This document shows positions 2,280 through 34,626 of a stretch of DNA of 34,626 nt, piece after piece (position 1 is the first letter of the stretch; every line of letters starts with the position of its first letter). The notes beneath the pieces are model-generated. The model saw only the letters and a program-made list of their open reading frames with translations. It had not been told where the DNA came from and ran no database searches. Position numbers and translations under genes: made by a program. Source of the stretch: Spirochaetales bacterium (GTDB lineage: Bacteria; Spirochaetota; GWE2-31-10); NCBI GenBank assembly GCA_017624275.1, contig JAGANG010000011.1:1-34626 (forward strand), written 5' to 3'.

Positions 2280-4337
2280 ATGAAAAAACATAGAATAATT
2301 TTTACAGTTTTATCGATATTGACAATTTTATGTTTTGCCGGATGTACAGCAGTTACCGATTTCGATTCAAAAATCATGAATCAAGAAGTAAAGCCGGTTG
2401 AAACATTGAAAAACGGTAATGTATCAGTAAAAATGTTTATTCCTGATTACTACACACTTACAGAAAGCCGTGCCATTGCACCGCAGACAAAATATGCAAG
2501 CTTAAAATATAATACAAATATCAATTATGACACAACACCGCCGACCTATGAATGGGCTACAATCGAAACATTGGAAATCAAAGAAGAAGATTTGACAGCC
2601 GTAGAAGGTGCCGGTGATATCGGACTTCCGGGTAAAATTTGGAAAGCAACTTTTGTTCTCGGATTGGGAACTTATTCCAAAGGTAAACTTGCGATAGATT
2701 TGCTTGACAGTGACAAAAATGTTATTACGTCCGGAAATAATGCTGATGACGTAACAATCGAAGAGGGGAAATCTGCAAGCTGCAGTTTCTTTACCGTGCC
2801 GAAAGAAATCAGCAGCAACAGCGGTAGCCTTGCATTAAATGAAATGAAGTTTTTTAGTGATAAAGTTTTCAAAGCAAATGATGTTGTTACAGTTATGAAA
2901 GCAGAGCTTGGAGGAGCCGAAGTTATTCGTTTTAATGCTGACGGTACATTCGGCGGTGTGATGACAAATGACTTTGTAAGCGGCAATGAAATCACAATTA
3001 CAAGTGAAACAGCAGGTTCATATTACGGAGTCTGGGCAAAGAATGCAGCCGTAGACAACTATGAAGTAGCAGTATGTACTTATGAAATCACTCCGAAAGG
3101 GGTACAAAATGTTATTTCCGGAAATACAATTGCTTACAATCTAAAAATGTCATTTATGGACGGCACGGTTGAAAATGCTGTAAAAGAATTTACAACTGAA
3201 AATACCGGAAAGCAAACTTTTACCGTAGAACATGGAGGTATAAATAAAGCTGTCGAAGTAAATGTTCTATCTGCGGATTACTTGACAGAGCCTATTACTT
3301 ACATGGGAAATACTTACAACGGAATAGACAGTGATACAATGAGCGGAAGTACTGAAAACGTGAACCTAAACTCAAGCTTTCAGCAAATCAAAGATATATC
3401 AAAGCTTGAAGTATCTTATCCTACAGGAAATGAATTCAGTGCAGACGCATTCTTTCCATTGAAACTTAAAGTAAATAATCCGGATATGCATCAATTTATG
3501 GCGATTATAATTTCTAAAGGTACAAATACTGAACATTACACTTATCGAGGAACCGGTGAAGACGGCGAAATAAATACTCGTATTTGGTTACGCTGGGGAG
3601 CCGGAGAATATACGGTAAAACTCTATGACTTGAGTTCTGTTTCATGGGATTTTGAAAATGTCGGCGGAACAAGTGCCGACGGAAAAGTAACTTATCAAGG
3701 TGATAATGTTGTAGTTGGTAGCTACTATTGTGCAGAGGGTAGTGATTACCCGGCTGTTACTTTTACCGTTAATAATACTCGTGACGAAGACGGTACATGG
3801 TTGTATCCGTCAAACGTAGTACAGGCTGATGATATTAATATTATGAACAAAGCAGCAGATATTACATACGGATTTGAAACTGCTTACGACAAAGCAAGGG
3901 CTATTCACGATTGGATTGTATTAAATCACTTCTATGATAATGACAGCCTAGCCGGAGCCAGAAAACGACAGGACGCCGTAGCTGTAATGGAATACGGAAT
4001 GGCTGTATGTGAAGGATACGCTAACTTAGCAGCTGCACTGATACGAAACTGCGGAATAGAGGTAAAATATATTTCCAGTAGTTCCATGGTGCACGGATGG
4101 AATCATGTAAATGTAGGAACGGCAGATGAACCTGATTGGAGATTGCTGGATTGTACTTGGGATGATCCTATCGGTGATTATTTACCTGCAGATTTTATTC
4201 GATGGGATAACTGTTTGGTAGAAGACCTTTATGGAGGAGATGGTTCTCATGCAGCCTCAGACCAAGAAGAATCTATCGGCAGAAGTATTTCTGTCAGTCG
4301 CAGTCATGACGACGGTACAGAAAGTATAGCTTACTAA
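2280..4337 (+). CDS. Lipoprotein with C-terminal transglutaminase-like domain (paralog 1)
   Basis: 685 residues. Lipobox CFAG-C puts the lipidated residue at Cys22. The N-terminal ~240 residues are beta-rich and unrecognised, with an 'SRAIAPQ' motif of a kind I associate with treponemal lipoproteins. From about residue 260 the protein is homologous to the protein encoded at 4548-6425. The C-terminal part is a transglutaminase-core domain: 'ARAIHDWIV', then catalytic Cys577 in AVCEGYANLA, His605 in VHGWNHVNVG and Asp624 in LLDCTWDDP. All three catalytic positions are present, so activity is plausible: a thiol acyl-transferase or protease acting on protein at the outer surface or in the periplasm. 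Ribosome-binding site AGGAGG. A strong terminator (4351-4381) follows. The substrate cannot be told from sequence; protein crosslinking and peptidase activity are both known in this fold. Confidence 0.82.
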   Translation: MKKHRIIFTVLSILTILCFAGCTAVTDFDSKIMNQEVKPVETLKNGNVSVKMFIPDYYTLTESRAIAPQTKYASLKYNTNINYDTTPPTYEWATIETLEIKEEDLTAVEGAGDIGLPGKIWKATFVLGLGTYSKGKLAIDLLDSDKNVITSGNNADDVTIEEGKSASCSFFTVPKEISSNSGSLALNEMKFFSDKVFKANDVVTVMKAELGGAEVIRFNADGTFGGVMTNDFVSGNEITITSETAGSYYGVWAKNAAVDNYEVAVCTYEITPKGVQNVISGNTIAYNLKMSFMDGTVENAVKEFTTENTGKQTFTVEHGGINKAVEVNVLSADYLTEPITYMGNTYNGIDSDTMSGSTENVNLNSSFQQIKDISKLEVSYPTGNEFSADAFFPLKLKVNNPDMHQFMAIIISKGTNTEHYTYRGTGEDGEINTRIWLRWGAGEYTVKLYDLSSVSWDFENVGGTSADGKVTYQGDNVVVGSYYCAEGSDYPAVTFTVNNTRDEDGTWLYPSNVVQADDINIMNKAADITYGFETAYDKARAIHDWIVLNHFYDNDSLAGARKRQDAVAVMEYGMAVCEGYANLAAALIRNCGIEVKYISSSSMVHGWNHVNVGTADEPDWRLLDCTWDDPIGDYLPADFIRWDNCLVEDLYGGDGSHAASDQEESIGRSISVSRSHDDGTESIAY

Positions 4338-4435: not shown

Positions 4436-4547
4436 ATTAGTCCACAACAGTATTTTTTTATAAATTGTAAAAATGTCAAAAGTAAAGTGTGTCTCTTTTT
4501 ATAAAAGGGTATTTTCCTTTTTACAAAAAATTAGTAGGGGACAATTT

Positions 4548-6425
4548 ATGAAAATATTCAATTTCCGGAAATTATTGACTTTAATACTGTTTTTGCAAAT
4601 CGGGTGTTCTTACACCGATCAAGATAATTCCGACAATCGACAATATGACAATTCTGATAATTCAAATAATTCGTCTGATATCGAAATAAACAATGGCGAC
4701 TCTAATAAGCCGCAGCAAGTGCCTTATATTGAAAATTTTAATACGGCACTGGATACTTCCGTATGGACAAAATCAAATAATATAGGAAAAAATCCGGTTC
4801 CCGCTGTAACAACTTTAGCTTCAAGTTATATTCATAAGGAAACAAGCACAATTAAATTGTCTTACTACAACTCTACATTAAGCAAAACTGTCAATATTTA
4901 CGAACCGAGTGCAGTAACGTTTAGTTTTTATCCCGACGGCAATTATTCAGGTCAAAAACTTTATTTTTATATCAACAACAATGAACAAGGAAGCTGGAAC
5001 GGCATAGGTGCCAGACAAACTTATACATTTTTACTGGAAAAAGCAGGTAAATATGAATTGAAATGGAAAACTACGGGACCTTACGGTTTGAAAGGAATGG
5101 GAAATGAAGTTTATCTCGATTGCGTAAGTATAGTTGCCGACAAAACTGACAGTATTGCAGTCTATCCTAAAGGTGTGCAAACAGTTGCCCTCGGTGAATC
5201 TATCACTTATACAGCAAAAGCTTTGCGTATTGACGGCAGTGAAATTAACGGAAAAGATATCACAAAAGATTTCACGGCAACTGCAACCGGAGAACAAACT
5301 TTCACTATGGAAATAGACGGTAAAATTGCTGATGTTAAGGTCAATGTCGTTTCTGCTGATTATATTACAGAACCAATTTTCTACATGGGAAAAACTTATA
5401 ACGGAATCATCAGCACTGTAAAGGGAAGTTCTGAAAATATTAATAAAGATTCCGATATTCCCAATTTAAATGATTCTGCAAAATTGGAAGTTTCTTATCC
5501 TACAGGAAATTCTTTCGATACGGACGGTTTTTTCCCGCTAAAATTAAATATTAATAATCCTGATTACAATCAATTTATAGGTATCACAATTTCTGACGGA
5601 ACAAACAGCAAAACTTATTTATACAGAGGAAATCCGGACAATGATTCCGGTGAATTGGAAACTCGCATTTGGTTGCGGTGGGGAAAGGGTAATTACTTGG
5701 TGAAACTTTATGATATCGTAAGTCTGAATTGGAAATATGAAGATTATGATAAGCAAAAAAATACATCTGCTGACGGTGTAATTTTCCGCGGCGATAATAT
5801 TGCTTCTTTCGGATATCATAAAAATTATCCGGCAGTGACATTTACGGTAAATAATACTCGTGACGAAGACGGGACTTGGTTGTATCCGTCAAGTGTAGTT
5901 CAGGCTGACGACATAAGAATAATAAACAAAGCTGCAGATTTAACTGCCGGATTAGATAATGTTGAAAGCAAAGTAAAAGCAATTCACGATTGGATTGTTA
6001 CATCAAAGCATTATGATAATGACAGTTTAATCCAAGGTTGCAGAAAACGTCAGGACGCCGTAGCCGTAATGGAATACAATACCGGTGTGTGTGAAGGATA
6101 CGCCAATCTTGCATCAGCAATGCTCAGAAGTTTAGGAATACAAACAAAGTATATTTCGTCCGATTCTTTAAGCCACGGCTGGAATCATGTAAATATAGGG
6201 ACTGTAGAAAATCCTGATTGGAGAATGATGGATTGTACTTGGGATGATCCGAATATAGCCGGTACAGGCGACGGAGGTTCTTTCTTTGTAACGTATGATA
6301 ATTACTTATTAGAAAATCATACAGGCGGTTCTGAAGCTCATATAGGCGGTTTAGAAGATAATTCAAGAAATATTACTTCTATTACTGTCGGTCATATAGA
6401 CGGCGTAGAAAACATAGCTTATTAG
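4548..6425 (+). CDS. Lipoprotein with carbohydrate-binding-like and transglutaminase-like domains (paralog 2)
   Basis: 625 residues from the ATG at 4548. An in-frame ATG exists at 4473, but only the later start has a ribosome-binding site (TAGGGGA, 4535-4541) and puts a signal peptide with lipobox FLQIG-C (Cys20) at the N-terminus. An Asp/Asn/Ser-rich linker (about 22-55) follows, then a jelly-roll-like region (~60-185, 'FNTALDTSVW ... YLDCVSIVA') reminiscent of carbohydrate-binding modules, an Ig-like segment (~190-265) and a transglutaminase core with Cys515 (GVCEGYANLA), His543 (SHGWNHVNIG) and Asp562 (MMDCTWDDP). The region from 'YPKGVQTV' onward is homologous to the preceding gene, so the pair arose by tandem duplication with N-termini that differ. 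Followed by the same terminator/REP arrangement as its paralog. Confidence 0.82.
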   Translation: MKIFNFRKLLTLILFLQIGCSYTDQDNSDNRQYDNSDNSNNSSDIEINNGDSNKPQQVPYIENFNTALDTSVWTKSNNIGKNPVPAVTTLASSYIHKETSTIKLSYYNSTLSKTVNIYEPSAVTFSFYPDGNYSGQKLYFYINNNEQGSWNGIGARQTYTFLLEKAGKYELKWKTTGPYGLKGMGNEVYLDCVSIVADKTDSIAVYPKGVQTVALGESITYTAKALRIDGSEINGKDITKDFTATATGEQTFTMEIDGKIADVKVNVVSADYITEPIFYMGKTYNGIISTVKGSSENINKDSDIPNLNDSAKLEVSYPTGNSFDTDGFFPLKLNINNPDYNQFIGITISDGTNSKTYLYRGNPDNDSGELETRIWLRWGKGNYLVKLYDIVSLNWKYEDYDKQKNTSADGVIFRGDNIASFGYHKNYPAVTFTVNNTRDEDGTWLYPSSVVQADDIRIINKAADLTAGLDNVESKVKAIHDWIVTSKHYDNDSLIQGCRKRQDAVAVMEYNTGVCEGYANLASAMLRSLGIQTKYISSDSLSHGWNHVNIGTVENPDWRMMDCTWDDPNIAGTGDGGSFFVTYDNYLLENHTGGSEAHIGGLEDNSRNITSITVGHIDGVENIAY

Positions 6426-9817: not shown

Positions 9818-11188
9818 TTATAAAGGTTGCCACAATTTCCAATACCATTGAAGAAAAAGTTCCAAATTATCATCAAAGTATTTCTTTATTAATAATGCAG
9901 TTTCTTTCCCTACATAGCGATAATGCCACGGTTCATATCTGTATCCGGTAAAATGTTCCATTCCCTTGGGAAAAGACAATATAAAACCATATTTATAGGC
10001 ATTATTTGCAAGCCATTTTCCTTCCGGATAATTCTCAAATGATTCATCTAATAAATTAAAGTCTATTGCCGTACCTAATTGATGTTGCGATGTTCCCGGA
10101 CGGGCACTGATACGTTGTGCTTCTTCCAATCCGAATTCTTTTACCCAATGCATAAAAACAATCTGTTGCGTGTTGTATGACCTAAATGCAGATATTACCT
10201 GTAAATTGCAATTATCAGATTTTGCAGCTTCTTTCATTTCTATAAGAGCATTTAAAGTATTTTTGCGAATTTGTATTCCACGCTTAGGTGAAAGTTTTTT
10301 CCCGTCTAAACTTTCTAAGTCTTTGGGAATATAATTTTTATCAAGACTATATTTTTTGTTCGGAAGTAAAAGTAATTCAGGATCAACCAAAGATTTTTCT
10401 AATAAATTAAAAAAATCATCTTCATTCTTTTTAACAGCTTCACATTCTACCGGCAAAGTTTCCAGCAAAAGCTGTTTAAAAAACAAGTTCTCATCTTTTT
10501 CTTTTTTAAACAAATCTTTAAGGAAATCAGTTTTAAAAAATTGTGAGAAAAAATCAGAATCTAACTTTTGTAAGAAACTAAACGGAACAGTTATCATCGG
10601 AATATTATATTGCTTTTCTAACCACAAGGACAAAGTTCCGCCGATGTGAATTTCCGGGTAGATATTTATATTTCCATATTTTTTTAACTGTAAAATACAA
10701 TCTTGAACCGGGGTAGAGTAGTTGCTTACGTAAATATTTTCAATGTTATTTCTTATTAAAAAAACAAGCGTTTTATTTTCCGAAAAAATCGATTTATTAT
10801 CCTGAAAAAAAGTAACCAGCTTTTTAGTCAGCTGCGAGCTTCCGGCTTCATTTCCGCAATTTATTTTCTTTGTATAATAATAAAGTGATGGTTGATGATT
10901 TTCTGAGAAATTACGCAACCAGCATTCTTTTCCGTCATTATCAGCTAAGAATACAGTAAATATTTTTGCATTTTGTACAGTCGGCTCTGCTTCTTTTTTC
11001 AAGTTTTGAACAAAACTCTCATAACTTGTTTTATTTTCAAATAAAAATATTAAATTGTTTTTCCCGTTTCCGAAAGTTTGCAGATAAGCGTCATTTCCGT
11101 TTGCCTGAACAGTTTCGATATTTTCCTGTAGAGAAAACATCACAAACGGAAACAACAGTACAATTATAAAACTGAATATTTTTTTCAT
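9818..11188 (-). CDS. D-alanyl-D-alanine carboxypeptidase, VanY type (peptidase M15B)
   Basis: 456 residues. Signal peptide at 1-19 without a lipobox, so exported. Residues ~20-280 are not recognised. The C-terminal part is a M15B/VanY domain with the zinc motif SQHQLGTAID (His369, Asp376) and EPWHYR (Glu419 and His422), plus 'VISAFRSYNTQ' before them. The family removes terminal D-Ala from peptidoglycan stem peptides, and the intact motif supports activity. The large N-terminal region is unusual compared with the ~200-260 residues of simple VanY proteins and may be a separate folded domain. The start ATG overlaps the upstream lipoprotein's TGA (ATGA), so translation of the two is coupled. 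Resistance to glycopeptides should not be inferred: no van regulators or ligases are nearby. Confidence 0.85.
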   Translation of the reverse strand: MKKIFSFIIVLLFPFVMFSLQENIETVQANGNDAYLQTFGNGKNNLIFLFENKTSYESFVQNLKKEAEPTVQNAKIFTVFLADNDGKECWLRNFSENHQPSLYYYTKKINCGNEAGSSQLTKKLVTFFQDNKSIFSENKTLVFLIRNNIENIYVSNYSTPVQDCILQLKKYGNINIYPEIHIGGTLSLWLEKQYNIPMITVPFSFLQKLDSDFFSQFFKTDFLKDLFKKEKDENLFFKQLLLETLPVECEAVKKNEDDFFNLLEKSLVDPELLLLPNKKYSLDKNYIPKDLESLDGKKLSPKRGIQIRKNTLNALIEMKEAAKSDNCNLQVISAFRSYNTQQIVFMHWVKEFGLEEAQRISARPGTSQHQLGTAIDFNLLDESFENYPEGKWLANNAYKYGFILSFPKGMEHFTGYRYEPWHYRYVGKETALLIKKYFDDNLELFLQWYWKLWQPL

Positions 11189-15825: not shown

Positions 15826-17036
15826 TATTTTACAACCTTTCCGTCAAAATCCCTGCCAAGTATCAATTTTACATCGATTTTTGAATTGATATTATTTTCA
15901 TCCGGCTTACGAGTTTCATATATAGTTCTTTTGCACTTTATCAAATCTGCCAATTTCAATGCTTTAGCTTCATTATTTCTAATAATTATGACAGTATTTT
16001 TATACTCACTGTGATCGGCATTTCCGGTTTCAATAACATCAAATCCATATGATTCCAAATAACGTTTACATCTTCCTGCAAATCCGACAATATCAGTTCC
16101 GTTTAAAACCTGAACCGTAATTTTATTACCGATTTCTTTAACTTCTTTTATTTCTAAAGCAGTAAGCGTTTCTTTTATTTCTTTTTTTACCCAAAAACCA
16201 CTTTTTTTAGGCAAGAAGATTGTCTTATTATTTTTTATATCTCTATCACAATAAACAATTATACTTACAAAATTTCTAGAATAATTCGAAACACCTTGCA
16301 AAAAACGTGTATTTATTTGGTTATAAAAAATCAAAATATCATTCAATGAAAGATTTGTATTCCACAGCGGATAAATATGTTCTGATATAATTTTCTCATT
16401 AAACAAATCTTGAAATGTTTCTTTCAATGTTATCACACTGCGAATAAATATTTCATCTCGTTTTAATTCTTCATATTCATTTTCATTATTCTTTTTTAAT
16501 GTCAAATATTCGATAGTTTTATCGCCGTCAAGATTTATAATTCCGGAAGGATAATAAATATATTTAGCCGGAATCGATATTTCTTCAGTAAAGATCTCAA
16601 TTCCGCCCACTAAATCAACATATTTAATCAGATTATTTTTAGACATAAATAAATAATAATTAATCTGAGTTCCCAATAATTTAGAAATACCGTTTTTTAT
16701 TTCCTCTTTTGATATTCCGGCTGCATAAGTTTCAGACAGAATATAAAAATCTTGTTTCCCACCCTTAATAAAAGTAGAGTAGGTATTGGGCAATAAATGA
16801 ACACTGGCAATTCTATCAGTCATTGAATTATAAAATAAAACAAAGGCTTTTATTATTTTTTGTTCGTCATCATGAACAGCAAAAAAACAGGAAACAGTTT
16901 GATTATTTTTTAACAAAACTTGCAACTTATTTTCACTCTTGAAAAAAGTTCCCGCAAATATTGTAATAACAAGTAATAAAAGAATTATGGCAATTAAAAA
17001 CCAACTGTTTGCATTGTTAGAATGTCTGCTATCCAT
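15825..17036 (-). CDS. LytR-CpsA-Psr (LCP) family protein with LytR_C domain, active-site residues altered
   Basis: 403 residues. One N-terminal membrane segment (~12-31), an extracytoplasmic LCP domain (~60-250, 'YVDLVGGIEIFTEEI' and 'NLDGDKTIEYLTLKK'), and a C-terminal LytR_C domain (~300-395, 'ITVQVLNGTDIVGFAGRCKRYLESYGF'). In active LCP phosphotransferases the sequences are of the kind 'IPRD' and 'LxGxxALxYxRxR'; here the matching places read LPNT and IEYLTLKK, so the expected arginines are missing. It may bind a lipid-linked glycan without transferring it, or do something else. It lies 13 bases after nadD and overlaps ispH by one base. LCP next to nadD and obg is a common order in bacteria. 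Confidence 0.8.
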   Translation of the reverse strand: MDSRHSNNANSWFLIAIILLLLVITIFAGTFFKSENKLQVLLKNNQTVSCFFAVHDDEQKIIKAFVLFYNSMTDRIASVHLLPNTYSTFIKGGKQDFYILSETYAAGISKEEIKNGISKLLGTQINYYLFMSKNNLIKYVDLVGGIEIFTEEISIPAKYIYYPSGIINLDGDKTIEYLTLKKNNENEYEELKRDEIFIRSVITLKETFQDLFNEKIISEHIYPLWNTNLSLNDILIFYNQINTRFLQGVSNYSRNFVSIIVYCDRDIKNNKTIFLPKKSGFWVKKEIKETLTALEIKEVKEIGNKITVQVLNGTDIVGFAGRCKRYLESYGFDVIETGNADHSEYKNTVIIIRNNEAKALKLADLIKCKRTIYETRKPDENNINSKIDVKLILGRDFDGKVVK

Positions 17037-17049
17037 TTATAAAACCTTT

Positions 17050-17622
17050 TTAATTATCAATATAAAGCTTATGCTTATTTATATAATCTTTCACTTTGTC
17101 AGGCAATAAAAAATCTATCTTTCTACCGTTACGAATCCTGTCTCTTATATCTGTCGAACTTATATTTATTACACGATTATCAAGCAATGTCATGGGATAG
17201 GGAGCTATTATTGAACAATTATTACGTTTTAAACAAATTAATTCAGTCTCTAAACAAAGATTATCGATTTCCTTCCATTTATGAAGTCCGTCTAATAAAT
17301 CATCTCCGATTATCACTCCGAGTTTTTCCGTAAGATTTAATTTTTCTTTGAATTCCCTTACAGTATCAATCGTATAAGAATTTCCGCCTCTTTGTATTTC
17401 TACATCAGAAACTTCCAAGTAATCAAAACCTTCGACAGCAAGTTCTGTCATTTTCAAACGATGACACGGCAAAGGGAAATCTGAATAACTCTTGTGTACC
17501 GGAATATTAGTCGGCACTAAAATAATCTTATCATAATTGAGTTTTTCTAAAACCCACACAGCCGACAACAAATGCCCGTAATGTATAGGATTAAAACTCC
17601 CCCCATAAACAGCCACTTTCAT
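17050..17622 (-). CDS. nadD: Nicotinate-nucleotide adenylyltransferase
   Basis: 190 residues, the normal NadD length. It adenylates nicotinic acid mononucleotide to deamido-NAD. The nucleotidyltransferase motif GGSFNPIHYGHL (7-18) is intact, as is the C-terminal ISSTDIRDRI signature (about 152-161). The start overlaps obgE's stop by four bases (17619-17622), so translation is coupled. Confidence 0.95.
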   Translation of the reverse strand: MKVAVYGGSFNPIHYGHLLSAVWVLEKLNYDKIILVPTNIPVHKSYSDFPLPCHRLKMTELAVEGFDYLEVSDVEIQRGGNSYTIDTVREFKEKLNLTEKLGVIIGDDLLDGLHKWKEIDNLCLETELICLKRNNCSIIAPYPMTLLDNRVINISSTDIRDRIRNGRKIDFLLPDKVKDYINKHKLYIDN

Positions 17623-19661: not shown

Positions 19662-21650
19662 TCATATTTTTTGCTCTCTCTGAGACTTTCTTGAATATCC
19701 CAATAATTTCATAGAAATCGCACTATGTCCGGATGAAAGACTTCGAAGCTTAGTTGTAAAACCGAATAATTCTTCCATCGGAGCATAAGATACAACTTTA
19801 TCAAAAGGTTCAATTCGAGAAATATCACATACCGTTCCATGACGAGCCGCAATTTCACCCGATATATTACCTGTATATTCCGGTTTTACAAATATTTCCA
19901 ATTCCATTTGAGGATATAAAATATCAACCTCTAAATCCTTAATTATTTTTGTTGCCAATCTTGAAAAAACACTGCAACAAAGCCCCAAAGAGGGCAACGA
20001 CGAAGATAAAGTAAAATCTTTTATTTTAACTTTTGTATTAATGAATTCGTATTCATTTACAGTCATAAGCAATGAATGCAAAATTTTCCCGGCTTCCGGA
20101 AACGGAAGATTTTCTTGAATAATACATTCAAGCTCATTTAATTTTAAAATTTCATTGTTCTGTAAACCTTCATTTTTATTAGTAAAACTAAATTCTAAAG
20201 ATAACGAAGCCAGAACTTCTTTATCTTGAATGGTAAAAAAAGATTCCTCGGTTTTTGTTACGCATTTTTGGGGAATTACCTTCGGAATAACAGCCGGTTT
20301 CCCTGCATGTGTTTTTATTTTATAAGAATGTTCAAGTCTGTCTCTAAAAATTTCAAGATGAAGTTCTCCCATTCCGCCTAATATAATCTCGCCGGTATCA
20401 GGTTCTTCTTTAAAAAACAAAGTAGAATCTTCCTGTAATAAGAATTTTCCTGCATTAATCATTTTTTCACGATCTTCCGGATTTTCCGGTTCTATACGTA
20501 AAAAAATTATAGGATGCTGATTTACCGCATAACATCCTTCATTTTTTTTAGCATCATCAACATCTAAATAAAGTGCAGAACTCGGAGATGTACTAAATTT
20601 TTCTTGAACTATTGCAATCTGACCTTCTTTTATTTCAGTTTCTTCCTCTAAGAGTCCGCCGAAAGGCATATAAATTTTATCTATTGAAATTTTTTCCCCG
20701 GATCCGGCACTATATAAATCTGTATCTTTTTTCAAAGTTATATCTTTATTTACCTTTACAAGTCTTAATCTACCTAATTCCTGATGTGCAATATATTTAA
20801 AAGAATAAACATCCGGTATTTTTTTATCACTTGCAATATCATCCGGTGCAGGGAGATAATTTTTTATTCCATCAGCTAACAGTGAAACTCCGATATTTTT
20901 CTTACTGGAACCGGCAAACAACGGTGTAATTTTTTGCAATATGGTTAGCTTACGAATTGTAGAAATAACAAGTTGTTCATTAATATTTTCACTGAGAACA
21001 CATTCCAAAAAATGTTCATCATGTTCTGTTAATGTATCAATCATAAGCGTGTAATAGAAATCTAAAAGACTTTTCCCATCTTCCGGAATATCCAAACTTA
21101 TTTGATTTTTATCATCATTAATGAAAAGTTTTTTTGATAAGACATCAATTATACCAATAAATTTATCTTCCTTATAATAAGGAATGGTCAGCGGTAAAAT
21201 TGGATATTGTTCTTGAATTTCATAAAAAACTCGCTCAAAATCGGCAGATTCTTTATCCAATTTATTTATATAAAAAATCAAAGGCTTATTTTTCATCGAG
21301 TCAGCACGTAATAAATTTTCAGTTTGAGCTTGAATTCCGGATTGACCGCACAAAACTACAACTGCTGCGTCCAAAACCTGAAGACAACATTCTACTTCAT
21401 TCATAAAATCAATATGTCCCGGCGTATCTATGATATGAAAAGTTGTATCTTTCCATAAACATTTAGCTACTGCCGACTGAATTGTGATACCACGTTCTCG
21501 TTCCTCATAAAGATAATCGGTAACAGTAGTTCCTTCATCTACTTCACCTAAATAACGACAAGCTCCCGATAAAAACAAAAGTCTTTCGGTTGTAGTAGTT
21601 TTACCGGCATCAATATGAGCTATAATTCCAAAATTACGAATATTAATCAT
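19662..21650 (-). CDS. Elongation factor G paralog, EFG2 type (likely ribosome-recycling GTPase)
   Basis: 662 residues. Five-domain EF-G layout. GTPase motifs: G1 AHIDAGKTT (11-19), G2 RGITIQ, G3 DTPGHIDF, G4 NKLD. The switch region 'GEVDEGTTVTDY..EERERGITIQSA' matches mitochondrial EFG2 more than EF-G or Tet(M). The C-terminal motif reads LRSLSSGHSA where translocating EF-Gs have LR..TQGRA, again EFG2-like. Spirochaetes carry two EF-Gs, and the Borrelia EFG2 has been shown to act in ribosome recycling rather than translocation, so that role is inferred here. The place next to ribosomal protein genes fits. No Shine-Dalgarno precedes the ATG. A tetracycline ribosomal protection protein is the main alternative, judged less likely. 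Confidence 0.85.
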   Translation of the reverse strand: MINIRNFGIIAHIDAGKTTTTERLLFLSGACRYLGEVDEGTTVTDYLYEERERGITIQSAVAKCLWKDTTFHIIDTPGHIDFMNEVECCLQVLDAAVVVLCGQSGIQAQTENLLRADSMKNKPLIFYINKLDKESADFERVFYEIQEQYPILPLTIPYYKEDKFIGIIDVLSKKLFINDDKNQISLDIPEDGKSLLDFYYTLMIDTLTEHDEHFLECVLSENINEQLVISTIRKLTILQKITPLFAGSSKKNIGVSLLADGIKNYLPAPDDIASDKKIPDVYSFKYIAHQELGRLRLVKVNKDITLKKDTDLYSAGSGEKISIDKIYMPFGGLLEEETEIKEGQIAIVQEKFSTSPSSALYLDVDDAKKNEGCYAVNQHPIIFLRIEPENPEDREKMINAGKFLLQEDSTLFFKEEPDTGEIILGGMGELHLEIFRDRLEHSYKIKTHAGKPAVIPKVIPQKCVTKTEESFFTIQDKEVLASLSLEFSFTNKNEGLQNNEILKLNELECIIQENLPFPEAGKILHSLLMTVNEYEFINTKVKIKDFTLSSSLPSLGLCCSVFSRLATKIIKDLEVDILYPQMELEIFVKPEYTGNISGEIAARHGTVCDISRIEPFDKVVSYAPMEELFGFTTKLRSLSSGHSAISMKLLGYSRKSQREQKI

Positions 21651-27591: not shown

Positions 27592-28371
27592 ATGTTAAAA
27601 ACAATAAAAGAACTTTGGAATTACCGAGCAATGATAGAAAGTCTCGTTAAACGAGAACTCAGAGGCAAATATGCGGCCTCTTTTTTAGGATTTTTGTGGA
27701 CTTTTATGAATCCGTTATTACAATTGGTTGTATATACAATAGTTTTCTCTGTTTTATTTCATAATAACATTGACCGTTACTATTTATATCTATTTATAGG
27801 ACTTGTTCCATGGATGTACTTCAGTGCTGTTTTTACTGAGGGGGCAAATTGCGTCGTAAACCAAAGTAATTTAGTAAAAAGAATACAATTTCCTCGAATG
27901 GTACTGCCGATTTCCTTCTCTACAAGTCGTTTTATCAATATGCTTTTAGTTTTTATTGTCATATTTTTGGTTATCATTGTGACCGGGTGGGGAATAAATC
28001 CTATTGCTCTTTTATTTCTACCGATTGTTTTTGCTGTAGAATATTTACTGGTTACGGGAATCGCAATGCTCGTTTCATGTTTGACTGTATACTTTAGGGA
28101 TTTAGCTTATATTCTCGGAGTAATATCAACTCTTTGGATGTACGCAACACCTCTTTTTTATTCTCCGAATATAATCCCGGAAGCATACAGAGGATATTAT
28201 AATTTAAATCCTATGGTTTCAATAATCACTGCATTTCGAGATATTTTATATTACAAGCGAATTCCTGCATTAGAAACATTAACTTTGGCAATTGTACTTG
28301 GATTGTTAATATTAATTATAGGAACTTTGCTATTTAATTTTTTAAATCGTCGTTTTGCTGAGGAGTTATAA
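27592..28371 (+). CDS. wzm: Polysaccharide ABC exporter, permease (Wzm type)
   Basis: 259 residues, six predicted membrane segments, ABC-2 permease family. 'LVKRELRGKYAASFLGFLWTFMNPLLQLVVYTIVFSVL' is the typical start of Wzm/TagG proteins, and 'LVKRIQFPRMVLPIS' the conserved cytoplasmic loop after it. With the ATPase encoded three bases downstream it would form the inner-membrane channel that moves lipid-linked glycan to the periplasm. AGGA ribosome-binding site. Confidence 0.93.
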   Translation: MLKTIKELWNYRAMIESLVKRELRGKYAASFLGFLWTFMNPLLQLVVYTIVFSVLFHNNIDRYYLYLFIGLVPWMYFSAVFTEGANCVVNQSNLVKRIQFPRMVLPISFSTSRFINMLLVFIVIFLVIIVTGWGINPIALLFLPIVFAVEYLLVTGIAMLVSCLTVYFRDLAYILGVISTLWMYATPLFYSPNIIPEAYRGYYNLNPMVSIITAFRDILYYKRIPALETLTLAIVLGLLILIIGTLLFNFLNRRFAEEL

Positions 28372-28374
28372 AAT

Positions 28375-29541
28375 ATGAGTGAATATGCTATTGAAGTAAA
28401 TAACGTATCTAAAAAATTTAAAATATATTTTGATAAAGGTTATTCCTTACGTGATAAATTATTGTTTTGGAAACGAAATCGTTATGAAGAATTAAAAGTT
28501 TTGCAAAATGTCAGTTTCTCAATAAAAAAAGGCGAGGCCGTAGGGCTGATAGGGCATAACGGTTGCGGAAAAAGTACAACACTGAAAATGCTTACACGTA
28601 TTATGTATCCGGATGCCGGTGAAATAATCATGAACGGACGAGTTTCCAGCTTATTGGAACTCGGAGCCGGTTTTCACCCTGATATGAGCGGAATTGAAAA
28701 TATTTATATAAACGCCTCAATTTTCGGACTCAGCAAAAAAGAAATAAACAAAAGACTAAAAGATATAATCGAATTTGCAGAACTCGGTGATTTTTTAAAT
28801 AATCCGGTAAGAACATATTCCTCAGGGATGTATATGCGTTTGGCGTTTGCTGTAGCCATCAATGTGGATGCCGATATTTTACTTATAGATGAAATTCTTG
28901 CTGTCGGGGATGCTAAATTTCGTGATAAATGCTTAAAAAAACTCAAAGAAATAAAAGAACAGGGAACAACCATAGTTCTTGTTTCTCATTCACTCGGACA
29001 AATAGAATCATTCTGTAACAGAACAATTTGGCTTCATAACGGTCAAATTTGTAAAGACGGTACACCGAAAGAAGTTCATAAAGAATATTTAGATTTTATG
29101 AACGGAAAGCCAATAACATCACCTACGATTACATATCCGATAAAGTTTACAAAATCAAAATTTCTAGATAAAAACAACAATGAAATAACATCACTAGCTA
29201 CGGGAAGTTCCCTAAAATTAGATATATCCTATGAAGCAGATTCGCAAATAATAGGAAAAGAACCGGTTTTTACAATAAGAATTTTTAATAAAGACAATGT
29301 TTATTGTTACGGAACAAACACTATTATGGACAAAATAGAAACCAAGCCACTGGAAAAAGAAGGAAAAATAAGTATTATCTTGTCAAACTTGTGGTTAATC
29401 AGCGGGAAATATAGATTTGATTTCGTAATAAAAAACAATAAAATGCAAGATATATCACCTATATTGAAAAAAAATATTGAAATAACAAGTAAAAATTCTC
29501 GTCCGGGAATTATACCGGCTTATGTAGATTGGGTAATTTAA
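28375..29541 (+). CDS. wzt: Polysaccharide ABC exporter, ATPase with glycan-binding C-terminal domain (Wzt type)
   Basis: 388 residues. ATPase part: Walker A GHNGCGKST (60-68), signature YSSGM (148-152), Walker B DILLIDE (167-173) and H-loop SH (204-205). The last ~135 residues (~252-388) form the Wzt C-terminal beta-sandwich. In E. coli O8/O9a this domain recognises the methylated end of the finished chain before export. Its presence implies a capped, substrate-specific export system, which makes the methyltransferase-like protein encoded next worth attention. Ribosome-binding site GAGGAG lies in the end of wzm. Confidence 0.93.
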   Translation: MSEYAIEVNNVSKKFKIYFDKGYSLRDKLLFWKRNRYEELKVLQNVSFSIKKGEAVGLIGHNGCGKSTTLKMLTRIMYPDAGEIIMNGRVSSLLELGAGFHPDMSGIENIYINASIFGLSKKEINKRLKDIIEFAELGDFLNNPVRTYSSGMYMRLAFAVAINVDADILLIDEILAVGDAKFRDKCLKKLKEIKEQGTTIVLVSHSLGQIESFCNRTIWLHNGQICKDGTPKEVHKEYLDFMNGKPITSPTITYPIKFTKSKFLDKNNNEITSLATGSSLKLDISYEADSQIIGKEPVFTIRIFNKDNVYCYGTNTIMDKIETKPLEKEGKISIILSNLWLISGKYRFDFVIKNNKMQDISPILKKNIEITSKNSRPGIIPAYVDWVI

Positions 29542-29611: not shown

Positions 29612-31384
29612 ATGTTTTTTCCCTTCAAAAAATTACTTTGGCTATTTCCTTGGGTAGGAAATATAATTTATAAAAAAGAATTGCGAACTATACGTAATTC
29701 CAGATATTTTGATGAAAAATATTATTACTTTTTGCGTCCTGATGTTTTCAATTCCCAAAAAGATGCAGCTTTGCATTATTTGCTTTATGGCTGGAAAGAA
29801 AAAACTAATCCGTCGGAATACTTTAATACTGCCGAATATTTAACTGCTTATCCTGATGTTAATTTTAATCCGCTTCTGCATTATGAATGGTTTGGAAAAA
29901 ATGAAAACAGAAACATTGGAATAAAACCATTTTTAATAGAAAGAAGTAATAAACAAAACAAAACTATAACTAACTTAAAAAATAAATTAATAACAATTCA
30001 AAACGCCATATCTTCATTAGAAGATAAGTTTATTTTTGACAAACAGCAATATACAGTAATACAAGAGGAACAAGAAAATAAGCTTACTACAATTCAAAAT
30101 ACAGTTTCTTTTGTACAAGAAAACCTTAATTTTGCCAGACGACAAACAGCAGAAATCCAACTTGTAGTCCAAGAAGAACAAAAATTAAGACAAAATAATA
30201 CTAATCAATTTGAAGAATTAAAAAAACAAGTCAATAATATTGAAAACTCATTACAACCCAAATTAGCAGAACAACAAAACGATTTTGAAACAAAATTAAC
30301 CGATTTAAAATTTCGATTTGAAAATCACATTTCAAATATTTTGCAAGAAATGGAAAAGAATAAAAAATCATTCGAAAATACAGTTAAAGTAATAGAAGAA
30401 ATAAAATCTTATTTTAGTCAAAATATTAATTCTTTACATGCGAACCTAACTGAACAACAAAACAACTTCGAATCAAAATTAGCAAAAGCTCAATTAGAGC
30501 AAGAAAAAAGTTTCTTAAATTACCAAAAGCAAGAACATGAGAAAACTGTTGCCAGGGAAGAAAATACACTGAAATTACAACGAGATTTGTTTGATATTGA
30601 ACGCAGTAACTCTGATTTACAAAATAAAATTAGTGAAAATACTACAAAACTAGAAAAAATATCAAATCTTGAATTGAGAATTAATTCAGTTGATGCAAAA
30701 TATTCACAAAAAGTCAGATCTGCAGAAGAATCTTTATGGGCTGATATTTTCAATCAAACCGTAAATGACAGTATTTGGTTAAAAAATAAAACATTTTCGC
30801 CGGGACGTTGGGCGGTAGGTTATCCTTATTTATACGTTATGTATAGAGTCTTGAATGAAGTAAAACCTACAAATATTTTAGAATTAGGTTTAGGTGTATC
30901 AACAAAAATTATAGGTCAATATGCCGGATATTATAATAATGTCAACCATACCGTAGTTGAAAATGATTCAGAATGGATTGATTTCTTCAACAGAGATTTC
31001 AAACTTTCTGATAATACAAAAATAGAACAACTAGATTGGGTATTTGAACCTTTTGAAGAAGCAAAATCTGTAAGAGTTTTCGGAAATTTTCAGACTAGAT
31101 TTTCCAACAAACAATTTGATTTTATTTCTATTGATGCTCCTCTCGGCGGAGATATGAAAGAGTATTCAAGAGTTGATATCTGCAAAATATTACCTCATTG
31201 TCTAAAAAAATCTTTTGTAATAATGATTGATGACTATGAACGAATCGGCGAAAAGCACACTGTAGAGAAAATGAAAGAAGCACTAAATAATGCCGGAATA
31301 AAATATAAAACAGGTGTCTACTCCGGAAAAAAAGACCTTCTAATTTTCGCTTCTGAAGATTTAAAATTTTTATGTTCAATGTAG
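29612..31384 (+). CDS. Coiled-coil protein with C-terminal methyltransferase-like domain
   Basis: 590 residues. Residues ~30-105 hold a twofold motif, 'RYFDEKYYYFLRPDV...ALHYLLYGW.EK.NPSEYF' then 'AEYLTAYPDV..NPLLHYEWFGKNENR', found at the N-terminus of some surface-glycan enzymes. Residues ~112-375 are a long coiled coil rich in Gln, Asn, Glu and Lys, with diverged 11-residue units such as LAEQQNDFETK and LTEQQNNFESK. Residues ~385-590 look like a class I SAM methyltransferase: motif I NILELGLGVST (421-431), acidic VVEND (Glu450), 'FDFISIDAPLGGD' and 'MIDDYER'. No signal peptide. Directly after wzm-wzt. A chain-capping methyltransferase with a coiled-coil spacer is a reasonable inference; other small-molecule or sugar methylation is possible. 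Confidence 0.72.
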   Translation: MFFPFKKLLWLFPWVGNIIYKKELRTIRNSRYFDEKYYYFLRPDVFNSQKDAALHYLLYGWKEKTNPSEYFNTAEYLTAYPDVNFNPLLHYEWFGKNENRNIGIKPFLIERSNKQNKTITNLKNKLITIQNAISSLEDKFIFDKQQYTVIQEEQENKLTTIQNTVSFVQENLNFARRQTAEIQLVVQEEQKLRQNNTNQFEELKKQVNNIENSLQPKLAEQQNDFETKLTDLKFRFENHISNILQEMEKNKKSFENTVKVIEEIKSYFSQNINSLHANLTEQQNNFESKLAKAQLEQEKSFLNYQKQEHEKTVAREENTLKLQRDLFDIERSNSDLQNKISENTTKLEKISNLELRINSVDAKYSQKVRSAEESLWADIFNQTVNDSIWLKNKTFSPGRWAVGYPYLYVMYRVLNEVKPTNILELGLGVSTKIIGQYAGYYNNVNHTVVENDSEWIDFFNRDFKLSDNTKIEQLDWVFEPFEEAKSVRVFGNFQTRFSNKQFDFISIDAPLGGDMKEYSRVDICKILPHCLKKSFVIMIDDYERIGEKHTVEKMKEALNNAGIKYKTGVYSGKKDLLIFASEDLKFLCSM

Positions 31385-31395
31385 GGGAAAAAATT

Positions 31396-33666
31396 ATGAA
31401 TAAAAATAACATTATCACAGTAAAAAATGCAGAAGGCGATCCGGATACACAAGCTGAAATCATCATACAAAACAAAATAGATTACATCCCGAAAGTTTCC
31501 GTAATTATTCCGGTTTATAATGTAGAAGAATACTTGCGAGAGTGTCTTGATAGCGTAGTAAATCAAACATTAAAAGAAATCGAAATCATCTGTGTTGATG
31601 ACGGAAGTACTGATAATTCGCTTGAAATTTCGAAAGAATATGCACAAAAAGACAATCGAATAACTGTAATAAAACAGAGAAATTCAGGTTCTGGAACTGC
31701 TCGTAATTGTGGAATTAACATTGCAAAAGGAGATTTTATTGCATTCATGGACAGCGATGACATGTATCCAGAAAATAAAACTCTTTCCACAATATATGTA
31801 AAAACAACAGAAAATAATGCTCTTATTTGTGGTGGTTCTGTTAATCAAATAAAAGATGGTAAATTAATAACAGATACCTCGATTTTCGAAGAAGGGTATT
31901 CTTTCAAACAAGAAGGATTTGTTGATTACAAAGATTACCAATTTGATTATGGTTATTGGCGTTTTATTTATAATCGAAATTTTTTGATTGAAAATCTGAT
32001 TTTTTTCCCTAATTACAAAAGATATCAAGACCCGCCATTTTTTGTAAAATCAATGATTTTAGCAAAAAAATTTTATGCTCTAAAAGAAGCTACATACATC
32101 TACAGAATATCTCATAAAAAAATTCAATGGACTGAGGAAAAAGTTCTAGATGTATACAAAGGGAAACTTGCAGTTCTAAATATGTGTAAAGAAAATAATC
32201 TCTTAAATTTATATAATAAAACAGCCCGCAGTTGCATCTCTACATGGCTTTTAGAAAATATAAAGCCGGTAATTACAAAACATAATTATGTTCAAAAATA
32301 TATATTAAATATAATCAATTCTATAGACAAATCTTTATTAACTACCAATATATCTATACCTGACATGTTGACAGTTCCCATTAAAATATCCGTTATTATT
32401 TCAATCTATAATACTGAAAAATACATTCGTGAATGTCTTGACAGTGTGATAAATCAAACACTAAAAAATATAGAAATCATATGTGTTAATGACGGTTCAA
32501 CTGATAATAGTTTAAATATACTAAAAAAATATGAATCCAAAGATAAACGAATAATTATTATTGATCAAAAAAATCAGGGACTCTCTTGTTCACGTAATAA
32601 TGCAATGAAAATTGCCAAAGGAGAATATATACAATTTCTCGACAGCGATGATTATTTAAAATCCGATACTATTGAAAAACTCTATAATTTTGCAAATAAA
32701 AATGATTTAGAGCTTTGTTCTTTCAGTGGTTACAATTTCATTGATGGAGAAAATGAATTATTGGAAAATAAATATTGGGATTTTGATTTTCTTCCGACTG
32801 ATTTTAATTGTGACCATTTTAATTATAAAGACTGCTTTGATTTTATAAATAAATTACCAGTTTCCTCATGCTTAACGATTTACAAAAATGATTTTATAAA
32901 AAAGCATCAATTCGAATTTCCGAAAGGCTTATGTTTCGAAGACAATGTTTTTTATTCAAAAGCTTTATTATCAGCACAACGATGCGGAATATTAAAGGAA
33001 AAACTATATTGCAGAAGAATTCACGGTAATTCTATCACTCAAAATTGGGATAAACATTTTAATGATTACATTAAAATCGTAGACATTCTTTTATCATGGA
33101 TAAAACAAAATAAAATTGAATTGTATAACACTTATAAAAATCATTACTTAACAGGGATTTTAAATAGATTTAAAAATTTCAACACAGGAATAAAGAAACA
33201 GTACATAAAAAAATTAAAAGATTTGATTGAACGCTATACAACATGTTTCGATTCTTTAAGTTTAATATCCTTAGCACAAAGTGTATGTAATGAAGACTTT
33301 TCTATTAATCCTCCGCTTTTATTCAAAGACTTAGGAGTAGGGTGTAACACTTGGTGCGAACCGAAAACAATAACCGGTGACGACATAAAAAGTTACACTT
33401 ACGATTTGTCAGACAATATTTACACTCGCTATGTCAGCTGGGATCCCATAAAAAAAGGCTCGTGTAATGTAGAAATTATACGACTTTCAGCTATTGAAAA
33501 GCAAAGTAAAAAAATCATAGAATTTCCTATAAACAAGATTATTTCCAACGGAGAAATAATCAATAATAAAGTAGAATTTCATAATCAAAAAGGTTGCTGG
33601 ATCGGCTGTAAAATAGAAGGAACATACGAGAGCTTCTCAATAGAAGCAAAGATAAAAATAATTTAG
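31396..33666 (+). CDS. Glycosyltransferase with two tandem GT2 domains
   Basis: 756 residues from ATG 31396, which has TAGGGGA (31382-31388); an in-frame ATG at 31372 overlaps the previous gene and has no ribosome-binding site. Two complete GT-A domains: the first at ~33-250 ('VSVIIPVYNVEEYLRECLDS', DDGSTDNS, metal motif DSDD 119-122), the second at ~331-540 ('ISVIISIYNTEKYIRECLDS', NDGSTDNS, DSDD 416-419). The domains lie 297 residues apart and stay alike at DNA level around those motifs, so they come from an internal duplication. The C-terminal ~120 residues are beta-rich and unrecognised. It probably adds two sugars of the repeat unit. Confidence 0.85.
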   Translation: MNKNNIITVKNAEGDPDTQAEIIIQNKIDYIPKVSVIIPVYNVEEYLRECLDSVVNQTLKEIEIICVDDGSTDNSLEISKEYAQKDNRITVIKQRNSGSGTARNCGINIAKGDFIAFMDSDDMYPENKTLSTIYVKTTENNALICGGSVNQIKDGKLITDTSIFEEGYSFKQEGFVDYKDYQFDYGYWRFIYNRNFLIENLIFFPNYKRYQDPPFFVKSMILAKKFYALKEATYIYRISHKKIQWTEEKVLDVYKGKLAVLNMCKENNLLNLYNKTARSCISTWLLENIKPVITKHNYVQKYILNIINSIDKSLLTTNISIPDMLTVPIKISVIISIYNTEKYIRECLDSVINQTLKNIEIICVNDGSTDNSLNILKKYESKDKRIIIIDQKNQGLSCSRNNAMKIAKGEYIQFLDSDDYLKSDTIEKLYNFANKNDLELCSFSGYNFIDGENELLENKYWDFDFLPTDFNCDHFNYKDCFDFINKLPVSSCLTIYKNDFIKKHQFEFPKGLCFEDNVFYSKALLSAQRCGILKEKLYCRRIHGNSITQNWDKHFNDYIKIVDILLSWIKQNKIELYNTYKNHYLTGILNRFKNFNTGIKKQYIKKLKDLIERYTTCFDSLSLISLAQSVCNEDFSINPPLLFKDLGVGCNTWCEPKTITGDDIKSYTYDLSDNIYTRYVSWDPIKKGSCNVEIIRLSAIEKQSKKIIEFPINKIISNGEIINNKVEFHNQKGCWIGCKIEGTYESFSIEAKIKII

Positions 33667-33921: not shown

Positions 33922-34626
33922 ATGAAAAAACTATTAAAAAAGATACTTTGGCTGTTTCCTTGGCTAGGCAACATTCTTTATAAAAAAGAATTGAGGATTA
34001 TACGTAATTCAAGATACTTCGATGAAAAATACTATTATTTTTTACGTCCGGACGTTTTTGCTTCAAAAAAAGATGCAGCATTGCATTATTTACTGTACGG
34101 CTGGGAAGAAAAAGTTAATCCTTCAGAATTCTTTTATACATCAGAATATTTAACAGCTTACTCGGATGTAAATTTTAATCCGCTTTTGCATTATGAATGG
34201 TTTGGAAAAAATGAAAACAGAAACATTGGAATAAAACCGTTTTTAACTGAAAGAAATAATAAATTAGAAGAAAATATAACTTTTGCCAGACGACAAATAA
34301 CAGAAGTTCAATTTGTAGTTCAAGAGGAACAAAAATCAAAACAAAATTATCTTAACAACAGTATAACTGAATTAAAAAACAGATTATCTGCATTAGAAAG
34401 CAAAAATCGTGAAATCGAAGAACTAAAAAAACAAATAAACAACTTTACCAACTCTTTACAATCTAAATTAGCTGAGCAACAAAATGATTTCGAATCTAAA
34501 TTAGCTGAGCAACAAAATGATTTCGAATCTAAATTAGCTGAGCAACAAAATGATTTCGAATCTAAATTAGCTGAGCAACAAAATGATTTCGAATCTAAAT
34601 TAGCTGAACAACAAAATGATTTCGAA
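33922..34626 (+). CDS. Coiled-coil protein, paralog of the 29612 gene, cut by window end
   Basis: 235 codons visible, no stop. ATG 33922 with AGGGAGA (33908-33914). The N-terminal ~107 residues ('KKLLKKILWLFPWLGNILYKKEL', 'RYFDEKYYYFLRPDV', 'NPLLHYEWFGKNENRN') are closely related to the protein encoded at 29612; bases 34187-34238 are identical to 29877-29928. The coiled coil then differs: about 57 residues present in the first protein before 'FARRQ' are missing here, and from 34462 the sequence becomes a run of 33-base units encoding SKLAEQQNDFE. Whether a methyltransferase domain follows, as in the paralog, is outside the window. Confidence 0.8.
   Translation, partial: MKKLLKKILWLFPWLGNILYKKELRIIRNSRYFDEKYYYFLRPDVFASKKDAALHYLLYGWEEKVNPSEFFYTSEYLTAYSDVNFNPLLHYEWFGKNENRNIGIKPFLTERNNKLEENITFARRQITEVQFVVQEEQKSKQNYLNNSITELKNRLSALESKNREIEELKKQINNFTNSLQSKLAEQQNDFESKLAEQQNDFESKLAEQQNDFESKLAEQQNDFESKLAEQQNDFE
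34462..34626 (+). repeat. 33-bp tandem repeat, at least five units, in frame
   Basis: Units at 34462-34494, 34495-34527, 34528-34560, 34561-34593 and 34594-34626. The first four are identical; the fifth has one G-to-A change (silent). Each encodes the 11-residue unit SKLAEQQNDFE. The array continues to the window edge, so the true copy number is unknown. Confidence 0.97.

Follow-up and report, generated by a model that had tools for sequence, protein, structure and literature searches.

A coiled coil is a characteristic marker of the chain terminators of ABC-transporter-dependent glycan pathways (PMC11231755). In WbdD, the terminator of Escherichia coli O9a and Klebsiella pneumoniae O3, insertions into the coil raise the modal chain length and truncations lower it (PMC5082667). 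Terminators can also be glycosyltransferases placed at the far end of the coil, as in WbbB of K. pneumoniae O12 and in the O4 and O7 systems, and terminator modules are freely distributed among proteins (PMC11231755). In NeuO of E. coli K1, a phase-variable O-acetyltransferase that acts on polysialate, catalytic efficiency increases linearly with the number of RLKTQDS heptads, which are N-terminal and appear disordered in the crystal (PMC3046976).

Here we describe a 33-bp array in a glycosyltransferase gene beside an ABC transporter. The array is real, young and frame-safe, and it is one case of repeat-built coils that recur in glycan enzyme genes. The window, that is, the whole stretch of 34,626 nucleotides that we analysed, is an entire contig (G000:C42, hereafter C42) of a genome that consists of 91 contigs and is about 84% complete.

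An in-frame array of 33-bp units

The array gene (33922–34626, plus strand) has 235 codons in the window, where its 3′ end is missing. TRF detected a period of 33 bp at 34460–34626, with 5.1 copies, 99% match and a score of 327, whereas the best score among 60 first-order Markov surrogates of the window was 80. The array (34462–34626, plus strand) comprises five units encoding SKLAEQQNDFE, all read in frame by the ORF that runs from 33922 to 34626. Units 1–4 (34462–34593) are identical base for base; the sole difference among the five is a silent G>A change at 34608 (plus strand) in unit 5 (34594–34626), which turns GAG into GAA (Glu) and marks where GAG-type units give way to GAA-type units. 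TRF and the comparison of units thus confirmed the original prediction of at least five units of exactly 33 bases, four of them identical at the DNA level. Its proposal that any gain or loss would keep the frame was likewise borne out, as the 33-bp units are 11 codons long and lie in frame. The position at which it ended the array, 34626, is where the contig stops, and the same array resumes in bases 1–153 of another contig, C82. The array gene was missing from the one other genome of the genus, two further genomes of the family and the remaining genomes of the order that were compared; a scan of the genome contigs with the array protein as query gave no match, nor did a search of viral contigs with the array unit.

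C82 (L018) opens inside the array with a partial GAG-type unit, continues with four GAA-type units and then enters unique sequence. The ends of C42 and C82 share only one exact suffix–prefix overlap, which is 54 bp long and spans the GAG>GAA border, and we used this overlap to join the two contigs. The minimal join contains four GAG and four GAA units, that is, eight units of 11 residues at exact 11-residue steps, and encodes a protein of 642 amino acids. Because each contig penetrates the array by 150–180 bp and then stops, as expected for an array longer than a short read, we take eight units as a lower bound, and the real number may be higher; if a single GAG>GAA border exists, eight is exact.

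The array gene lies in a glycan export locus

The array gene belongs to the same gene run as a wzm-like ABC transporter permease gene (27592–28371, plus strand) and a wzt-like ABC transporter ATPase gene (28375–29541, plus strand) whose product carries a Wzt_C carbohydrate-binding tail. This gene run is therefore an ABC-transporter-dependent glycan cluster. The locus also has a galE-like gene, recognized by reading, and several GT2 genes. A paralogue of the array gene (29612–31384, plus strand) starts 70 bp downstream of wzt, and a double GT2 glycosyltransferase gene (31372–33666, plus strand) lies between it and the array gene; in C82, the array gene is followed by a partial relative of this double gene.

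The array protein begins with an N-terminal helix (MKKLLKKILWLFPWLGNILYKKE) and a small helical domain (FDEKYYY...PDV...HYL.YG), encoded together at 33922–34251 (plus strand) and 84–86% identical in the paralogue. This region probably docks the protein to the membrane or to a complex. The same domain also adjoins wzm–wzt in a relative (G370), and in another (L068) it occurs with a coil and a methyltransferase. A coil without repeats (34252–34461, plus strand) precedes the array and was predicted as one helix by AlphaFold2; in the model of the array protein, a single continuous helix (residues 111–234) spans both coil and array. A fold search with the model of the dock and coil matched nothing meaningful. 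In Pfam and NCBIfam the coil matched models of SMC, Rad50 and apolipoprotein (PF01442, E 1.2e-5, with 25.5 bits where the cut-off is 90), all of which we set aside as generic coil matches far below cut-off. The C-terminal domain is a GT2-like glycosyltransferase, with a Pfam E-value of 3.2e-4 that falls just under cut-off; against the sequences of solved structures this domain gave only a marginal match, to KfiA (E 0.016). No kinase domain match was detected in the array protein or the paralogue.

In the paralogue, the shared N-terminal domain and coil are followed by a C-terminal class I methyltransferase; the paralogue is a candidate chain terminator. The methyltransferase domain (30731–31381, plus strand) was modelled with a pLDDT of 96.4, and the model matched O-methyltransferases in the PDB at an E-value of 5e-9 and weaker. 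Its assignment as a class I SAM methyltransferase follows from the fold together with motif I (E-x-G-L-G), in which E51, G53, L54 and G55 are invariant. Searched against the sequences of solved structures, the domain gave marginal matches only (LlaGI/LlaBIII, 0.009–0.07), and 30 of 48 relatives weakly matched the glucuronoxylan methyltransferase family PF21729.

Origin of the array gene

Between the paralogues, the N-terminal domains have diverged to a dS of about 0.87; the array gene ends in a glycosyltransferase and the other gene in a methyltransferase. Directly after the glycosyltransferase stop codon (L018/C82 1279–1332), we found approximately 44 bp that match the final 44 bp of the methyltransferase gene (window 31341–31384) almost perfectly. 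This remnant is followed in C82 by the start of a gene resembling the GT2 gene downstream of the paralogue, and DNA identity is 84% over both. Because a 3′ remnant of the methyltransferase gene stands after the glycosyltransferase stop, we read the arrangement as a duplication of the dock–coil–methyltransferase gene together with the GT2 gene, after which the C-terminal domain was swapped. The array gene would then have arisen from its duplicated dock–coil–methyltransferase neighbour by exchanging the C-terminal domain for a glycosyltransferase.

The coil of the array gene would have grown as one 33-bp unit, still single in the paralogue, was duplicated in tandem, presumably through slippage. 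This single copy, PKLAEQQNDFE (30257–30289, plus strand), is accompanied by the hexamer AAATTA at 30260 and 30293, 33 bp apart, a pair that is a possible seed for slippage; a degenerate second copy of the motif, NLTEQQNNFE, lies at 30443–30472 (plus strand). Because the array units differ by at most one silent change, as against a dS of about 0.87 for the paralogues, the array is much younger than the gene duplication, or is homogenized. This agrees with the original prediction that it had expanded very recently or was being homogenized.

Several other features of the locus and the window were recorded. A C-terminal domain (LLFKD.G.GC.TWCEP...SWDPIK.GSC.VEI) is common to three otherwise differing glycosyltransferase genes, at window 33301–33663 and at the ends of L018 1311–5306 and 8465–9826; judged from these sequences, it appears to be a second mix-and-match module at the locus. 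An EF-G-like protein encoded on the minus strand (19662–21650) also matches tetracycline ribosomal-protection models. It scores below every curated cut-off (EF-G, 356 bits against 659; tet_protect, 264 against 775) and is probably an EF-G paralogue. Three probable lipoproteins (570–2267, 2280–4337 and 4473–6425) have no NCBIfam match; the one at 570–2267 has an Asp/Pro/Asn-rich repeat stretch at 705–838, and the other two look like mutual paralogues with a C...HGWNHV...DCTWDDP region.

Repeat-built coils recur in relatives

Scanning the named genomes with the methyltransferase domain returned 72 loci, found in Firmicutes, Bacteroidales, Treponema, Methanobrevibacter, Gastranaerophilales, Akkermansia, Endomicrobium and others. 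Many of these relatives have a short basic/hydrophobic helix first, a coil next and the methyltransferase last, and wzt lies immediately upstream of the methyltransferase gene, as in the window, in 11 of the 65 relatives with upstream sequence. The coil before the methyltransferase ranged from almost nothing to more than 200 residues, a rough range from a proline-free coil-length heuristic that fails on the array gene and on multi-domain proteins. A comparison of L042 with L047 as a clean two-hendecad difference was dropped, as the alignment gaps were 8, 7 and 7.

In L059, L068, L080, L084, L090, G060, G138 and G370, in-frame tandem coil repeats preceded or adjoined the same domains, with units of 7, 14, 28, 35, 36 or 40 residues. 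Because the unit sequences are unrelated, these arrays probably arose independently. In the archaeon Methanobrevibacter curvatus (L068 5720–7036), the same dock is followed by a coil that contains a 120-bp sequence twice, in exact copies, and by a methyltransferase. In Endomicrobium (L090), 36-residue coil repeats lie in a single protein that is matched by the glycosyltransferase query as well as by the methyltransferase query. In Treponema saccharophilum DSM 2985, a glycosyltransferase gene downstream of the methyltransferase gene carries an in-frame 21-bp array of 13.2 copies, IAEQNAT (L059 11700–11977). G370 has wzm–wzt followed by two large dock-domain proteins, one of them with 4.3 copies of a 35-residue coil repeat, and in G138 a glycosyltransferase gene near wzm–wzt contains 6.7 copies of KEKDELL. 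Methyltransferase genes accounted for four of the six genes with strong coil arrays (score of at least 90), compared with about 7.5% of bases, in a count read by hand in which genes overlapping a methyltransferase gene by a few bases were not taken as methyltransferase genes.

G060 has three paralogues with 21-bp (heptad) arrays of 2.9, 2.9 and 21.8 copies. They are 73–75% identical across their glycosyltransferase domain, which is related to that of the array gene, and the N-terminal helix of these relatives is INKILWWIPFRKKRD (for comparison, KKILWLFPWLGNILYKKE). In the same genome, G060:C9 (L135) contains perfect AGACC pentanucleotide runs of 13.2 copies (9929–9994) and 11.6 copies (16402–16459) close to the heptad-array glycosyltransferase genes; these are possible phase-variation tracts. 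A further 21-bp array of 20.3 copies lies at 16670–17095, about 360 bases past a 505-aa glycosyltransferase gene.

Discussion

We consider it probable, with room for doubt, that the array forms a coiled-coil spacer, recently expanded in frame, that joins a dock to a glycosyltransferase in a Wzm/Wzt cluster and resembles the WbdD and WbbB rulers. In the proposed mechanism, the N-terminal helix and domain would dock the protein and the coil would keep the C-terminal enzyme at a distance. Because each in-frame unit gained or lost would change the helix by about 1.65 nm (11 × 0.15 nm; about 13 nm for eight units), repeat number would set the reach of the enzyme from the dock, as coil length does in rulers of the WbdD/WbbB type. 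The glycosyltransferase might cap, decorate or extend the glycan. We infer that the coil is oligomeric and that its length may affect the glycan; stepwise tuning of glycan length by the array, as the original prediction proposed, is plausible. The methyltransferase paralogue, which lacks the array, is likelier than the array gene to be the chain terminator, that is, the ruler proper. The distance to a segment that both proteins share, FLNYQKQEHEK, is similar (residue 282 in the minimal array protein and 301 in the paralogue), and a shared docking site, if there is one, may place the two enzymes at comparable reach.

The original prediction took the unit for a hendecad of a coiled coil. Its length, 11 residues, is indeed the hendecad period, and a hendecad projection places L and F next to each other on the core face with the two Q residues alongside. 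When these 11 residues were permuted, on the other hand, 37–40% of the orders had as large a hydrophobic moment at 11/3 residues per turn, so that the moment of the unit is not above chance. The pattern of the unit therefore seems compatible with a hendecad and does not by itself require one. An 11-residue period would also suit an amphipathic helix that lies on the membrane in the manner of apolipoproteins, and the coil does match the apolipoprotein domain below threshold (E 1.2e-5, 25.5 bits versus 90). The unit has a net charge of −2, however, with L, F and A as its sole hydrophobic residues, and in relatives the same place is occupied by heptads, which suit coils; we regard a membrane-lying helix as improbable.

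A coiled-coil spacer could also be neutral. If any coil length were tolerated, slippage or recombination would add in-frame units and the glycan would not respond to their number, and the unrelated units of relatives, 7 to 40 residues long, are what is expected if only helicity is kept. The wide range of coil lengths before the methyltransferase points the same way. Against this, chain length follows coil length in WbdD (PMC5082667), and genes of this kind repeatedly carry long arrays of nearly identical units, so that neutrality is a possibility to be taken seriously but one to which we give the lesser credence. It is highly unlikely that the assembler over-extended an array that numbers one or two units in the real gene. 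Both contigs do break within the array, and the assembly is single and incomplete, but a collapse to one or two units is hard to reconcile with two contigs that each end in at least four whole units, with a silent variant that consistently marks one border, and with similar arrays in complete or isolate genomes of relatives (L059 and G370).

More speculatively, the dock–coil–enzyme proteins of ABC-exported glycans, with a domain order opposite to that of WbdD, swappable methyltransferase and glycosyltransferase ends and fast in-frame coil repeats, might be widespread, unrecognized adjustable rulers that set surface-glycan length stepwise in bacteria and archaea; we put this forward tentatively and think it doubtful as a general rule. 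We found no description of such arrays in the open-licence literature, which is weak evidence of novelty. Given the results with engineered WbdD coils, natural arrays of near-identical coil units would offer an existing length series, and they would open directly the question of whether evolution tunes surface-glycan length by the count of coil units. The swap remnant and the paralogues with different repeat numbers show how a shared dock and coil serve to rebuild such enzymes.

The array protein and its paralogue share with WbdD an ABC-transporter-type glycan locus and a coil, predicted here, that separates the catalytic end from a docking end, the latter probable here, and the paralogue shares the methyltransferase. 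They differ in order, with the dock N-terminal and the enzyme C-terminal, whereas WbdD has an N-terminal methyltransferase and kinase and a C-terminal membrane region. The array protein further differs in having a glycosyltransferase, no detected kinase domain and near-identical tandem units. WbbB and the O4 and O7 terminators are similar in that a glycosyltransferase sits at the far end of the coil; those enzymes are Kdo transferases (PMC11231755), whereas that of the array protein is GT2-like, a distinction drawn from their descriptions. NeuO resembles the array protein in being a glycan enzyme that contains in-frame repeats, and its activity is tuned stepwise by their number (PMC3046976). 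Its gene, however, has 7-nucleotide repeats, so that most changes shift it out of frame and off, whereas the 33-bp array always keeps the frame. Further counterparts are the arrays of relatives, which combine a homologous methyltransferase, glycosyltransferase or dock with in-frame coil units, although those units are 7–40 residues long and unrelated in sequence.
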